Source of the DNA: Actinomycetota bacterium | GTDB taxonomy: Bacteria > Actinomycetota > Aquicultoria > Aquicultorales > Aquicultoraceae | Reading direction: 5' to 3' | DNA length: 33,493 nucleotides | Assembly (NCBI GenBank): GCA_030018005.1 | Contig: JASEGT010000019.1 | Coordinates: 1 to 33,493, forward strand | Shown: positions 2,302 to 14,977 of the stretch, piece by piece | How positions within the stretch are numbered: position 1 is the stretch's first letter | How the letters are laid out: the number at the start of each line of letters is the position of its first letter | The notes under the pieces: model-generated | The model's input: the letters and a program-made list of their open reading frames with translations, nothing else | Told to the model about the DNA's origin: nothing | Database searches by the model: none | Translations under genes and position numbers: made by a program

Positions 2302-4977
2302 TTGAAGAATAAAATCATCCTAATCGACGGCAACAGCTTGGTATATAGGGCGTTTTTCGCGCTGCCGACGACGCTTGCAAACTCGAAAGGGCAGGTGACA
2401 AACGCGGTCTACGGCTTTACGAGCATGCTTATAAAGCTGCTCAAAGATGAGAAGCCGGATGTCGTAATCGTAGCCTTCGACCGCGCCGCGCCGACCTTCC
2501 GACACGAGCAATTCGAAGACTACAAAGCGCACCGTGAGCCGACGCCGGATGACCTAATCAGCCAGTTTCCGCTTGTCAAAGAGGTGCTGAGGGCGCTCAA
2601 TATCCCGATATATGAACTCGACGGTTTCGAGGCCGATGACATACTGGCGACGCTCGCGTCGAGAGCCGAGGCCGAAGACGACGAGGTGCTGGTCGTCACA
2701 GGCGACCGAGACGCGTTTCAGCTAGTCGATGACCATATAAAAATCATGACCACCCGCAAGGGGATCTCGGACATTGTGATTTACGACCGCGCCAAGGTCA
2801 TTGAGCGCTACGGGATTACGCCCGAGCAGGTGCCGGATTATCTCGCGCTCAAAGGCGATGCCTCGGACAATATCCCTGGAGTGCCCGGTATCGGCGAGAA
2901 GACCGCGGCTAAGCTTATCCGGCAATACGGAAGAGTCGAGGAAATCCTTGCGGGCCTCGATAAGATAGAGAACAAGCGCTGGCGGGCGATGCTCGAAGAA
3001 AACGCCGCCGAAGCCGAACTCTCAAAACGACTCGCGATACTCGAGCGCGACGTGCCGATAGAGGTCGATTTCAGCGAGTGCCGTGTAGGCGGCTTTGACG
3101 AGCAAGAGGTTCGCCGCGTCTTCGCCGACTTGGAGTTTTTTACGCTCCTCGACAGGTTTTTTGCTCAAAGCAAAAACCAGCCGGCTCAGCCGTCCGAAAC
3201 CGGCGTACCCATAACCGCAACAACCGGTCCCGACATCATATATCTGGCACATGAGGAAGATGTGAAGCAGCTCGCCGCCGAACTCGACGCAGCGGGGCAG
3301 TTCGCCATCGTGGTCCGCGCGAGCGGCGAGAACAGCATCGACCGCGATATCGAAGCGCTGGCCATAGCATATGGCGAGGACAAGGTCTATATAGCCAAAG
3401 AGGCGACGACGCTCTTCGACGAGAACGAGCAGGCAATCGGCGCGCAAAACCTGCTGCGGATGCTCAAAACGCAGCTTGAGAGCGCTGCTATAGCCAAAGT
3501 CGGACACGAACTCAAGCAAGTCATGCTCGCGCTCTGGAACGAGGATATCCACCTCGGCGGTATAGCGTTCGACACCGAAATCGCCGCATATCTCATCAAC
3601 CCCGACCGCTCGTCATATCCTATAGAGGAGCTGGCCGCTATCTATCTCGGCATGGTGCTTTCGGGCACGACCGGCGATGAGCGCCTCGCGCTGGAGGCGG
3701 TCGCAAACCTGCGCCTCAAGTCAAAGCTCGAGGAGATTCTCGAAGAACAAAATCTGTTAAAGCTCTTCAATGAGATCGAGATGCCGCTCATACCCGTTCT
3801 CGCCAAGATGGAGCACGAAGGGGTCGGCATAGACACCGACTATCTAAGCGACCTCTCTAAAGAGACGGAGCTTCTTCTCGAGTCGATAGAAAACGATATC
3901 TACTCGCTGGCGGGACAGGAGTTCAACATCAACTCCCCGCAGCAACTCGGCGTCATCCTCTTCGAGCAGCTCGGCCTACCGAAGTCGAAGAAGACCAAGA
4001 CCGGCTATTCGACCGACGCAAACGTCCTGGCAAAATTGTTGACCGTCCATCCCATAGTCGAGAAGATTGTAAGCTTCCGAGAGTTGGCCAAGCTGAAGTC
4101 TACCTATATAGACGCGCTCCCGAGGCTCGTCAACCGTAAGACCGGCAAGATTCACACCTCGTTCAACCAGACGGTAACGACAACGGGGCGTCTCAGCAGC
4201 AGCAACCCAAACCTGCAAAATATCCCGGTCCGCACTGAGCTTGGCTCGCGCATGCGCGCCGCGTTTATCCCGTCGCGACCCGGAGAGTTCTTTCTATCGG
4301 CCGATTATTCCCAGATAGAGTTGCGTCTGCTCGCGCATTATTCAGGCGAAGAGGTGCTGATAAGGGCGTTCGAGGCCGACGAAGATATTCATGAAGTGAC
4401 GGCGATAGAGGTCTTCGGTGTCTTGCCCGAGCAGGTGACATCGCAGATGCGCCGTATCGCCAAGATGGTCAATTTCGGCGTTCTCTACGGTATGAGCGCG
4501 TACGGGCTATCCGACCGGCTCGGTATCCCGGTGGGCGACGCCCGCACCTTCATCGACAAATACTTCAAGAGCCTCCCCAAAGTCGAGGAATTCATAGCAA
4601 GGACGATAGCCGAAACGCGAGAGAAGGGCTACGTCGAAACGCTCCTCGGTCGAAGGCGCTATATCCCCGAGCTTAAAAGCAGCAATGGCAGGATTCGCAG
4701 CCTCGGCGAAAGGTTTGCGGTAAATGCGCCGCTACAGGGTAGCGCCGCTGACATCATCAAGCTGGCGATGGTCCGGGTCGACAAAGAGCTTGAGGAGCAG
4801 GCATTCCAGGCGAGAATGGTCCTGCAGGTCCACGATGAGCTTATCTTCGAGACATCCGAGGGCGAGCTGGATACGCTGAGCTTGATGGTCAGAGATATCA
4901 TGGAGCACGCGTTTCCGCTCAGAGTACGTCTAAAAGTCGATGTTTCTTCAGGTTTTAATTGGAAAGAAGCGAAATAG
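2302..4977 (+). CDS. polA: DNA polymerase I, proofreading domain degenerate
   Basis: 891 aa from the TTG at 2302. An in-frame start at 2224 exists but lies at the predicted -10 box; an AGAGG site precedes the TTG by 10 nt, and family members begin near KNKIILIDGNSLVYRAFF. The N-terminal 5'-3' exonuclease is intact (VIVAFD, EADDILATLA, GDRDAFQL, GDASDNIPGVPGIGEKTA). The middle domain lacks the DxE and exo II residues of proofreading enzymes (around residue 334 reads FAIVVRASGEN), so 3'-5' exonuclease activity is probably lost, as in Taq and Bst enzymes. Polymerase motif A is DYSQIELR (Asp668), motif B KMVNFGVLYG (Lys721) and motif C QVHDE (His844, Asp845). It fills gaps after excision repair and removes Okazaki primers. 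It is followed by rpsA as in other actinobacteria. Confidence 0.97.
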   Translation: MKNKIILIDGNSLVYRAFFALPTTLANSKGQVTNAVYGFTSMLIKLLKDEKPDVVIVAFDRAAPTFRHEQFEDYKAHREPTPDDLISQFPLVKEVLRALNIPIYELDGFEADDILATLASRAEAEDDEVLVVTGDRDAFQLVDDHIKIMTTRKGISDIVIYDRAKVIERYGITPEQVPDYLALKGDASDNIPGVPGIGEKTAAKLIRQYGRVEEILAGLDKIENKRWRAMLEENAAEAELSKRLAILERDVPIEVDFSECRVGGFDEQEVRRVFADLEFFTLLDRFFAQSKNQPAQPSETGVPITATTGPDIIYLAHEEDVKQLAAELDAAGQFAIVVRASGENSIDRDIEALAIAYGEDKVYIAKEATTLFDENEQAIGAQNLLRMLKTQLESAAIAKVGHELKQVMLALWNEDIHLGGIAFDTEIAAYLINPDRSSYPIEELAAIYLGMVLSGTTGDERLALEAVANLRLKSKLEEILEEQNLLKLFNEIEMPLIPVLAKMEHEGVGIDTDYLSDLSKETELLLESIENDIYSLAGQEFNINSPQQLGVILFEQLGLPKSKKTKTGYSTDANVLAKLLTVHPIVEKIVSFRELAKLKSTYIDALPRLVNRKTGKIHTSFNQTVTTTGRLSSSNPNLQNIPVRTELGSRMRAAFIPSRPGEFFLSADYSQIELRLLAHYSGEEVLIRAFEADEDIHEVTAIEVFGVLPEQVTSQMRRIAKMVNFGVLYGMSAYGLSDRLGIPVGDARTFIDKYFKSLPKVEEFIARTIAETREKGYVETLLGRRRYIPELKSSNGRIRSLGERFAVNAPLQGSAADIIKLAMVRVDKELEEQAFQARMVLQVHDELIFETSEGELDTLSLMVRDIMEHAFPLRVRLKVDVSSGFNWKEAK

Positions 4978-4984
4978 AATTGCC

Positions 4985-5009
4985 AAACCGGTTTATTTAG
5001 CTTAAGCTA
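4985..5009. promoter_or_regulatory. Two adjacent perfect palindromes downstream of polA
   Basis: AAACCGGTTT (4985-4994) and TAGCTTAAGCTA (4998-5009) are both perfect palindromes, 3 bp apart, immediately after the polA stop and about 40 bp before the candidate structured RNA. They could be operator sites for the RNA/rpsA transcript. No family operator is recognised with confidence. Confidence 0.4.
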
Positions 5010-5051
5010 TATACCAGCAAGGTGAAAAAGCAGTTCAACTAGAGGAATTCT

Positions 5052-5185
5052 TGCGGGTAAGCGGCGATGCCGCGTGGATAGAAAGGAAAAGTGGAGTTGA
5101 GGGCAGACTGATCAAGTTCGTCTTTTCCCGAAGCAACACAGAGTCCATGTCGCACTTAAATTACCGTTAGGACGGATAGCCCGCA
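5052..5185 (+). ncRNA. Candidate structured RNA or riboswitch-like leader before rpsA
   Basis: A closing helix pairs TGCGGGT (5052-5058) with GCCCGCA (5179-5185, one G-U). Inside are GCGGC-GAT-GCCGC (5061-5073), GGAAAAG (5085-5091) with CTTTTCC (5122-5128), and a smaller GTCC/GGAC helix (5143-5146/5170-5173). The closing helix abuts an intrinsic terminator at 5186. This is the layout of a multibranched regulatory RNA or a free-standing small RNA. I compared it mentally with common riboswitches, 6S, SRP and RNase P RNAs and found no match. There is no ORF of substance in the region. Structure is from hand pairing only. Confidence 0.4.
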
Positions 5186-5212
5186 GCCACCTCTGGTGGC
5201 ATTTTTGTTTTT
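5186..5212 (+). terminator. Intrinsic terminator upstream of rpsA
   Basis: GCCACC (5186-5191), loop TCT, GGTGGC (5195-5200), then ATTTTTGTTTTT. It ends the polA transcript and/or the candidate RNA at 5052-5185. It lies 38 bp before the rpsA start, so it could also act as an attenuator. Confidence 0.8.
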
Positions 5213-5250
5213 AATCGCCTATTGCTAAAAATTTGGGAGGTTTTAGATTA

Positions 5251-6765
5251 ATGTCCGAAAAAGAACCAATTGACAATCCGGAAAGCTACATGATCATGAA
5301 CGAGGACGGAGTACTAGTCCCCGATTACGATCAAACCATCAAGGTCTTCGATGATGGCGACATAGTCGTCGGCGAAGTCGTAAAAGTCGACCGCGATGAG
5401 GTGCTCGTAGACATCGGCTACAAGTCGGAAGGAGCGATTCCCGCCAGGGAGCTTTCGATTAGACCCGATGCCGACCCCTTCGAAATCGTCAAAGTAGGCG
5501 ACCGCATCGAAGCGCTCGTCCTTCAAAAAGAGGATAAAGAAGGAAGACTCATTCTCTCGAAGAAGCGTGCCGAGTATGAGCAAGCTTGGATTAGAATCCA
5601 GGCGCTCGCAAATACCAGCGAGACGATTGAGGGAAACGTCATCGAAGTCGTAAAAGGTGGGCTGATAGTCAACATCGGGTTAAGAGGGTTTTTGCCGGCG
5701 TCGCTAGTCGACTTGAGACGAACAAAAGACCTCCATCAATTCATCGGCCAGACCATGGAATGCCGGATTATCGAAATGGATCGCAACAGAAACAACGTGG
5801 TTCTTTCGAGGCGTGCGGTTCTTGAGGAGGAGAAGAAACACGAGAAGGGCAAACTCCTCGAGAAGATAGTCAAGGGAGCGGTGCTCGAAGGCAAAATCTC
5901 GAGTATCGTCGACTTTGGAGCATTCGTCGACCTTGGCGGCATAGACGGACTTATCCACATCTCGGAACTCTGCTGGAACCATATCGACCACCCGTCAGAA
6001 GTCGTGGCAGTCGGTGATGATGTAAAAGTCCAGGTTTTGGATGTTGACTTCGACCGCGAGAGAATCTCTCTCGGGCTTCGCCAAACACAGGAAGATCCCT
6101 GGAGACAAAAAGTGAGCGACTACAACGTAGACCAGCTCATAACAGGCAAGGTAACCAAGCTCGTGCCGTTTGGGGCGTTTGTCGAAATAGAAGAGGGCCT
6201 CGAAGGTCTCATCCACATCTCGGAACTTGCGCACAAGCATGTTGAGATGCCGGAAGAGATCGTCAAGGTGGGCGAGAGCGTCGATGTTAAAATCGTCGGT
6301 ATCGATGTCGACAAGAGAAGGGTAAGCTTGAGCGTCAAGCAGACTCTTCCCGCACCGGAGGATACTAAAGCAGAGGCTGCAGCTGAGACGGAAGATGTAG
6401 AAGAAGCGACCGTTGAAATTGCAGTAGCTGAAGAGGTCGAGCCTACGGTGGTAGAGACTACTGTAGAAGAGACGGGCGTCGTCGAGGCCGTAGCTGAGGA
6501 AGCTGTAGCCGAAGAAGTCGCCGAAGAAGCTGCGGCTCCTACGGAAGCCGAGGAGACGGCAGCAGACGAGACAGCTGAGCAAACCGTAGAAGAACCGCTT
6601 GTCGAAGAAGTAGCTGTTGAAGAAGCCACAACAGAAGCTGTTGAAGAAGTAACAGAAACAGCGACTGAAGAAGAGGCAACTGTGGCGGTCACGCCGGGCT
6701 CGCTTGAGGACGTGCTCAGCCAAATGAAGAAAGAGCATCCCAAAAAAGGATCGGGCGCGGAGTAA
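5251..6765 (+). CDS. rpsA: 30S ribosomal protein S1, four S1 repeats plus long acidic tail
   Basis: 504 aa from the ATG at 5251. The ribosome site GGGAGG sits 10 nt upstream; an in-frame TTG at 5233 overlaps that site and is rejected. Four S1 RNA-binding repeats lie at about residues 36-105, 122-190, 208-275 and 297-365, the last two with classic FGAFV...GLIHISEL cores. From about 366 the protein becomes a Glu/Ala/Val/Thr-rich low-complexity tail of roughly 115 residues, ending in a short basic segment (KKEHPKKGSGAE). Actinobacterial S1 proteins have four repeats with variable tails, but this tail is long and strongly acidic. S1 helps the 30S subunit capture mRNA. It is followed by its own terminator, so it is probably monocistronic. 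Confidence 0.95.
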   Translation: MSEKEPIDNPESYMIMNEDGVLVPDYDQTIKVFDDGDIVVGEVVKVDRDEVLVDIGYKSEGAIPARELSIRPDADPFEIVKVGDRIEALVLQKEDKEGRLILSKKRAEYEQAWIRIQALANTSETIEGNVIEVVKGGLIVNIGLRGFLPASLVDLRRTKDLHQFIGQTMECRIIEMDRNRNNVVLSRRAVLEEEKKHEKGKLLEKIVKGAVLEGKISSIVDFGAFVDLGGIDGLIHISELCWNHIDHPSEVVAVGDDVKVQVLDVDFDRERISLGLRQTQEDPWRQKVSDYNVDQLITGKVTKLVPFGAFVEIEEGLEGLIHISELAHKHVEMPEEIVKVGESVDVKIVGIDVDKRRVSLSVKQTLPAPEDTKAEAAAETEDVEEATVEIAVAEEVEPTVVETTVEETGVVEAVAEEAVAEEVAEEAAAPTEAEETAADETAEQTVEEPLVEEVAVEEATTEAVEEVTETATEEEATVAVTPGSLEDVLSQMKKEHPKKGSGAE

Positions 6766-13597: not shown

Positions 13598-14977
13598 ATG
13601 TCAGGTGTAGGCAGAAACGACCCCTGCCCGTGCGGCAGCGGCAAGAAATTCAAAAAGTGTTGCGGCGCGCGCCCTTTTGCGGAGATAAAACCAGAGGCCT
13701 CGACGAAGAAACGCCAGGTGGATGCGATACTCACGTACCTAAGCAAAGAGCACGGCGAAGCTATCGAGGACGCCTACGAGGTATTCTTCGAAGAATTCGA
13801 CCCCGAAGAACATCTCGACGGCGGCTTGCAAAATATGGCGATGATAAACTTCTGGGACTGGGTGGTCAGCGACGCTCTCGCCGACTACGACGACCCGGAT
13901 AACAGAACAACCCTCCTAGACCTCTACATCGAAGACAACCGTAAAGAGCTAAGCGACGATGACCTGCGCGTTCTCGAGAAGCTAAGAGATTCGTATATCA
14001 GTCTCTACGAAGTCGCGGAGGTCTACCCCGAGGAAGGCTTAATCTTTGAGGATTTGCTTCTGGGCGGTTCGTTTAAAGTGCGCGAGCGCACCGCCACCCG
14101 CTATCTGAACAAATGGGACATCGTCGCTGTACGTCTACTCGAGATAGATGGTGAGTGGGTTATGTCGGGGAGTATCTACTCTTACCACCGGCACCGCAAG
14201 ACTAAACTAATCGAGGAGTTCAAGATCGACTACGAGCTGCTCAAAGGCGACCATCCCGATATTACGATGCGTGAATCGCTTAAGGAGAACGGCGATTTGT
14301 TCATGTACTATTGGTACGAGCCGCTTCTCTATCCCGAGTCGCCGCAGATAGCCACTTCAAGCGGCGAGCAGGTTATTATCTCCAAAGCGCGCTTCGATGT
14401 GGTGGACAAAGACGCGGTAATCGCCGCCCTCACCGCCATCAATGGTTTCGAGCGCGAAGATGAGAGCTTTGTCTGGCTCGGCGAGACCGAGCATATGAAC
14501 GGCCTGGTCCTCCTGGGGCAGGTCGTCTTCGAAGGAGACCGGCTTATTCTGGAGACCAATTCCAAGGAGCGACTGGAGAAGGGAAAAGCACTTATCAGCG
14601 AGCACGCCGGCGGACTGGTTATGCATAAGGCCGACGAGTTCCAAGATATCCTGCAGGCGCTCGAGAATCAGAAACTCGGTGTGCATGCGTCCAAAGACGA
14701 CGTCGACGATATCTCGCCCGAGATGCGGCAGCAGATCTATGAGCAGTTTATGCAAGGATATTATGAGAACTGGCTCAACGAACGCATCCCGATGCTCGAC
14801 GGCAAGACGCCACTCGAGGCTGTCAAGACCGAGGACGGCAAGCGAGGTGTTATCGAGACGTTAAAGTCCATTGAGAATGCCGAGCTTCGCAACAAAAAGC
14901 AGGGGCAAGCGCATGTCGATATCGCCTGGCTGTGGGAGCGCCTCGGGATAGAATGTCCGGGGTCTAAACAGCCTTGA
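13598..14977 (+). CDS. SEC-C zinc-motif protein of unknown function
   Basis: 459 aa. The N-terminus is a SEC-C motif (residues 6-23, C10, C12, C21, C22, with GRNDPCPCGSGKKFKKCC), the zinc-binding element also found at the SecA C-terminus. The remainder is acidic and probably alpha/beta with no membrane segment. A C-terminal stretch with WLNERIPMLDGKTPLEAV resembles the toxin-binding tail of MbcA/ParS-type antitoxins and of other SEC-C proteins, but this may be coincidental. AGAGGG lies 9-10 nt before the ATG. SEC-C proteins are often annotated only by the motif; possible roles are ribosome or Sec contact. It follows arsM on the same strand by 92 bp, with a possible terminator between. Confidence 0.8.
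   Translation: MSGVGRNDPCPCGSGKKFKKCCGARPFAEIKPEASTKKRQVDAILTYLSKEHGEAIEDAYEVFFEEFDPEEHLDGGLQNMAMINFWDWVVSDALADYDDPDNRTTLLDLYIEDNRKELSDDDLRVLEKLRDSYISLYEVAEVYPEEGLIFEDLLLGGSFKVRERTATRYLNKWDIVAVRLLEIDGEWVMSGSIYSYHRHRKTKLIEEFKIDYELLKGDHPDITMRESLKENGDLFMYYWYEPLLYPESPQIATSSGEQVIISKARFDVVDKDAVIAALTAINGFEREDESFVWLGETEHMNGLVLLGQVVFEGDRLILETNSKERLEKGKALISEHAGGLVMHKADEFQDILQALENQKLGVHASKDDVDDISPEMRQQIYEQFMQGYYENWLNERIPMLDGKTPLEAVKTEDGKRGVIETLKSIENAELRNKKQGQAHVDIAWLWERLGIECPGSKQP

Follow-up and report, generated by a model that had tools for sequence, protein, structure and literature searches.

The spacer between polA and rpsA in a Candidatus Aquicultor genome (Actinomycetota, class Candidatus Aquicultoria) carries an undescribed, family-restricted structured leader RNA that most likely acts as an attenuator of rpsA. 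The window, which is the whole 33,493-nucleotide stretch of DNA that was analyzed, is contig C39 of this genome. In the window, the polA stop codon is located at 4977 and the rpsA ATG at 5251, and both genes are encoded on the plus strand, as are all features of the leader described below. The putative regulated gene, rpsA (5251..6765), encodes ribosomal protein S1 and was identified by its S1 domains (PF00575, four stretches, E 4.2e-72); a Shine-Dalgarno (SD) sequence, GGGAGG, precedes its ATG at approximately 5235-5240. We found the leader in all 11 Candidatus Aquicultoraceae genomes, which represent six genera. Each genome has a single copy at E <= 0.001, invariably located 5' of rpsA; the leader thus shares with r-leaders a consistent position upstream of a ribosomal protein gene (11/11).

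The core of the leader is enclosed by the closing helix P1. The initial annotation had proposed that 5052-5058 (UGCGGGU) pairs with 5179-5185 (GCCCGCA) around further helices, and this helix of seven pairs, one of which is G-U, was indeed present and conserved in 11 of 11 family genomes. As annotated here, the P1 5' strand spans 5051..5058, and the 3' strand (GCCCGCAG, 5179..5186), which pairs with it and covaries across genera, contacts the 5' arm of a terminator. Inside P1, the P2 hairpin (GCGGC-GAU-GCCGC, 5061..5073) was 100% paired in the 11 genomes, with changes only of the G-U type. P3 is formed by 5074..5079 and GUCCAU at 5143..5148 and was paired in 97% of the cells of the model-fitted alignment. 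Both strands of P4, GGAAAAG (5085..5091) and CUUUUCC (5122..5128), were invariant in 11/11 genomes, and the loop AGAAA was invariant in the consensus structure. P5 was placed between P4 and P3 (5129..5142); this region forms a covarying hairpin (GCUC/GAGC, CCC/GGG, GCC/GGC) in the other seven species and is unpaired in Aquicultor. In the four Aquicultor genomes, including the window, the single-sequence minimum free energy structure lacked P4, and forcing P4 carried a penalty of 0.6-2.2 kcal/mol. In four of the 11 leaders (L007-L010), GGCAAGC beside P2 is complementary to GCUUGCC at the terminator and could form a helix there in place of P1, which suggests a second conformer; the alternative helix GCAAGC/GCUUGC could not form in the other lineages and was not retained.

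Folding of the spacer gained only modestly over dinucleotide shuffles (z -2.14; 5 of 200 shuffles were equally good), so the closing helix alone would not be convincing, and the real evidence for the structure is comparative. The mean between-genus identity was 0.708 for the RNA core versus 0.355 for the rpsA fourfold-degenerate sites, indicating that the core of about 140 nt is under strong purifying selection. P1 varied by whole pairs across genera (UA/AU/GC; GC/CG; GC/AU/UA/GU), and in a swap test, swapped strands paired as well as the own strands in only 119 of 40320 permutations. In the model-fitted alignment, 86.9% of the cells were paired, compared with 31-51% when the partners were slid. 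Two pairs in P5 and one in P1 reached E < 0.05 in a two-set, R-scape-like covariation test whose null was tree-based, and no pair outside the structure did so among the 11 sequences. The covariation set comprised only 11 sequences, including four that were nearly identical, and manual adjustments were made to the alignment of P1 and P5. P2, P3 and P4 were paired but nearly invariant, too invariant for covariation testing. A conserved structure with covariation support, as expected for an r-leader, was therefore found through P1 and P5 (11 sequences, alignment partly manual). As evident from these comparisons, the leader RNA is real and conserved, and the check in related genomes that the initial annotation had set beforehand turned out in its favor, as the pairing was conserved and partly covarying.

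P1 directly abuts an intrinsic terminator (GCCACC-UCU-GGUGGC plus U tract, 5186..5212), which ends 38 nt before the rpsA ATG, as previously noted for this spacer. The terminator hairpin occupies 5186-5200 and is followed by AUUUUUGUUUUU to about 5212; a hairpin and then a U-rich tract were present in 11/11 genomes, and no other terminator-like site was found within 4950-5260. Upstream of P1, we found a conserved strand, ACUAGAGG (5038..5045), which is the complement of CCUCUGGU at 5190-5197 in the terminator hairpin and is the 5' strand of a candidate antiterminator helix, P0. The own pairs of P0 were better than swapped pairs (permutation fraction 0.0026), and the divergent leaders L003 and L008 showed matching changes. 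The energies of P0 and the terminator differed by no more than 2 kcal/mol in Aquicultor and by no more than about 4 kcal/mol in 9/11 genomes, and in L007 and L010 the terminator was favored by 5-6 kcal/mol. The overlap between P0 and the terminator makes the two helices mutually exclusive, as in an attenuator, although in L007 and L009 P0 is weak or missing. Because P0 is complementary to and nearly isoenergetic with the terminator, the leader resembles a transcription attenuator more than a trans-acting sRNA. Sequence comparison across the family thus demonstrated a conserved fold, mutually exclusive helices and a fixed link to rpsA.

Directly 3' of the polA stop codon, a conserved block in 11/11 family genomes contains a promoter composed of TTGCCA (4980-4985), a 17-nt spacer and TAAGCT (5003-5008), spanning 4980..5008; the -35 box copy of L009 was also read. 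Actinomycetota use -10 boxes of the form TANNNT, and a strict consensus promoter scan did not list TTGCCA-N17-TAAGCT. Transcription of the leader would start near 5015. The family alignment revealed no conserved promoter in the 38-nt gap between the terminator and rpsA and no conserved sequence between the terminator and the rpsA SD; therefore, transcription of rpsA must read through the terminator. Elsewhere in the window, a regulator with NrpR domains (PF01995 and winged-helix PF08461) is encoded beside polA at 832-1812 on the minus strand, and the gene at 13598-14977 on the plus strand encodes a protein whose N terminus has a SEC-C motif and whose C terminus weakly matches Xre/MbcA/ParS. 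NrpR-type regulators are mainly known for archaeal nitrogen control.

When the covariance model R1 was searched against 397 Actinomycetota, only the 11 family members were recovered at E <= 0.001; the leader was not found in the sister family, in the rest of the class or among the other 386 Actinomycetota sampled, and a second copy was not found in the window genome even at E 1. A few genomes of the class gave matches at E 0.006-0.08, which were judged to be noise, and two early matches (L012 and L013) were dropped because they were short and coding-like. The polA-rpsA spacer of the sister family genome G011 (L063) contains a different long helix, CAAAAGUCGACCAA/UUGGUCGGCUUUUG, and has no sequence similarity to the leader. 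It carries the same kind of promoter, TTGCAC-N17-TAAGCT in place of TTGCCA-N17-TAAGCT, and was rejected as the same leader on account of its different fold. The rpsA leaders may turn over between families.

With moderate confidence, we interpret the RNA as a structured 5' leader that would act in cis on rpsA and control its transcription by attenuation, the feedback trigger being our inference. RNA polymerase would start at the promoter just 3' of polA, and the core, P1 to P5, would fold. The terminator hairpin would then form and transcription would stop before rpsA; alternatively, an outer helix, P0, in which CUAGAGG pairs with the terminator's CCUCUGG, would stack on P1 and block the terminator. 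The state of the switch would be set by feedback, in which S1 or 30S subunits loaded with S1 would act on the invariant core; this core would carry a masked SD-like sequence and a four-codon mini-ORF. Such a leader would probably provide on/off control of the amount of S1.

The SD-like loop, AGAAAGGA (5080..5087), was invariant in 11/11 genomes and is complementary to the 16S tail UCCUUUCU over all 8 nt. The tail CACCTCCTTTCT was taken from the family genome G009 and formed a duplex of -10.0 kcal/mol with the loop; the 16S tail of the window's own metagenome-assembled genome was looked for and not found. A candidate mini-ORF, UUG-AGG-GCA-GAC-UGA (5097..5111), follows, with its start 8-10 nt 3' of AGAAAGGA. 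In 11/11 genomes, a start codon (UUG/GUG) was followed by three codons and an in-frame stop codon (UGA/UAG) at the same spacing. When the substitutions within this segment were randomly redistributed along the tree, the start and the stop both survived in 0.07% of the runs. A second frame at 5074-5100 (GUG/AUG-GAU-AGA-AAG-GAA-AAG) was also open in 11/11 genomes, and in eight of them its UGA overlapped the mini-ORF's UUG. It was rejected as a gene, as it had no SD, no synonymous changes in the invariant codons after GAU and no conserved stop, and was judged to be a by-product of RNA conservation.

These features suggest a specific form of the attenuation reading, in which initiation of the mini-ORF at AGAAAGGA/UUG, and not protein-RNA binding, would be the switch; we regard this form as possible but rather doubtful. 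The invariant SD complement, its spacing, the start and stop codons kept in all genomes and their rare joint survival in the simulations all speak for it. In addition, P4 would cover part of the SD-like loop, which would explain why P4 is invariant instead of covarying. Taken together, the SD-like loop, the conserved start and stop codons and the masking by P4 indicate that S1-loaded ribosomes may be the sensed signal. However, the mini-ORF bases could be explained instead by conserved RNA pairing, as they also lie in possible GGC/GCC or UUG/CAA pairs, and only two changes (UAG to UGA and UUG to GUG) are informative. One of them favors the ORF reading, since in Aquicultor the stop changed from UAG to UGA while the local GGC/GCC pairing was lost. 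Energetic coupling to the terminator was also lacking in most genomes: when the SD/mini-ORF region was blocked to mimic a ribosome and nearest-neighbor energies were computed, the terminator balance was unshifted in 9/11 genomes. Secondary structure alone thus does not explain how the core would be coupled to the terminator, and the coupling step is inferred. Leader-peptide attenuators of the trp/his type also have an SD-like site and a short ORF ahead of the terminator, and the Aquicultoraceae leader resembles them in this respect. In contrast to them, its ORF has four codons with variable amino acids and no run of regulatory codons, and it does not overlap P0, P1 or the terminator, so that no regulatory codons lie over the switch helices.

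A small-molecule riboswitch is an unlikely alternative, in which the core would serve as an aptamer, and its ligand, a metabolite connected with translation or growth, would stabilize P1/P0 and prevent termination. The compact multi-helix core, its many invariant unpaired bases and a covarying P1 beside the terminator correspond to the usual layout of such RNAs, and the close balance between P0 and the terminator would suit a ligand switch. The leader shares with transcription-attenuating riboswitches a conserved core closed by P1, an adjoining terminator and an antiterminator-like strand. Unlike them, however, it matches no known aptamer, and the only gene that it precedes is this one ribosomal protein gene, never one for metabolism or transport. 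The initial annotation had noted that no known RNA class fitted, and the Rfam scan that it had set beforehand bore this out, with no gathering match in the window and no relevant match at a relaxed threshold in the window or seven relatives. Near-matches to snR99 and isrD were far under the gathering scores. No covariance model of a riboswitch or of any other Rfam class, 6S, T-box, SRP and RNase P among them, matched the leader, and the true 6S RNA is located elsewhere in the genome (G000 C11).

A stand-alone trans-acting sRNA (about 190 nt) that has a promoter and a terminator of its own and merely neighbors rpsA appears quite improbable, although the promoter and terminator flank the RNA exactly. 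The adjacency of rpsA holds in all 11 genomes and six genera, rpsA needs read-through because the 38 nt after the terminator contain no conserved promoter, and the upstream strand complements the terminator. Of the three options originally offered for this RNA, a leader or attenuator is thus favored and an sRNA processed from the polA 3' end is disfavored, given the own promoter in 11/11 genomes, the single copy, the constant link to rpsA, the strand complementary to the terminator and the lack of room for an rpsA promoter. Least probable is the absence of any regulation, with a constitutive polA terminator and a stabilizing 5' leader on the read-through rpsA mRNA: a terminator would indeed close the transcription unit after polA, but a mere terminator needs neither purifying selection on a core of about 140 nt nor a dedicated promoter.

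To place the attenuator reading among known systems, we compared the leader with described regulators of ribosomal protein genes. The Aquicultoraceae leader is similar to r-leaders with a conditional intrinsic terminator, as it is structured, lineage-restricted and located before a single ribosomal protein gene, with the terminator as its likely output (PMC7247131). In contrast, the 20 new r-leaders in the survey of Eckert and Weinberg (2020) include none for S1/rpsA (Table 1) (PMC7247131). The main text of a 50-genome ncRNA survey makes no mention of rpsA (PMC11109978). According to a 2024 review, S1 autoregulation is translational in gammaproteobacteria (PMC10931766). The gammaproteobacterial rpsA operator is likewise a conserved structured leader before rpsA, and S1 represses its own synthesis there, but this operator has no canonical SD and acts on translation (PMC10931766). 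The Aquicultoraceae rpsA instead has the strong SD GGGAGG and a leader with an intrinsic terminator and thus does not show the operator's combination of a missing canonical SD and control at the translation initiation region. In the literature searched, we found no rpsA leader acting via transcription attenuation and no description of an RNA in the polA-rpsA spacer.

The kind of leader described here is already known, while its target, its architecture and the embedded initiation site are new, and it adds an RNA family that is missing from Rfam. A conserved rpsA leader in a deep actinomycetal lineage provides a test object for possible S1 feedback control outside Proteobacteria. We tentatively raise the prospect, which we consider rather unlikely, of a new leader class in which a P4-masked SD and a four-codon mini-ORF gauge S1-dependent initiation and set termination before the S1 gene. 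If this were true, S1 would be regulated by sensing its own ribosomal function.
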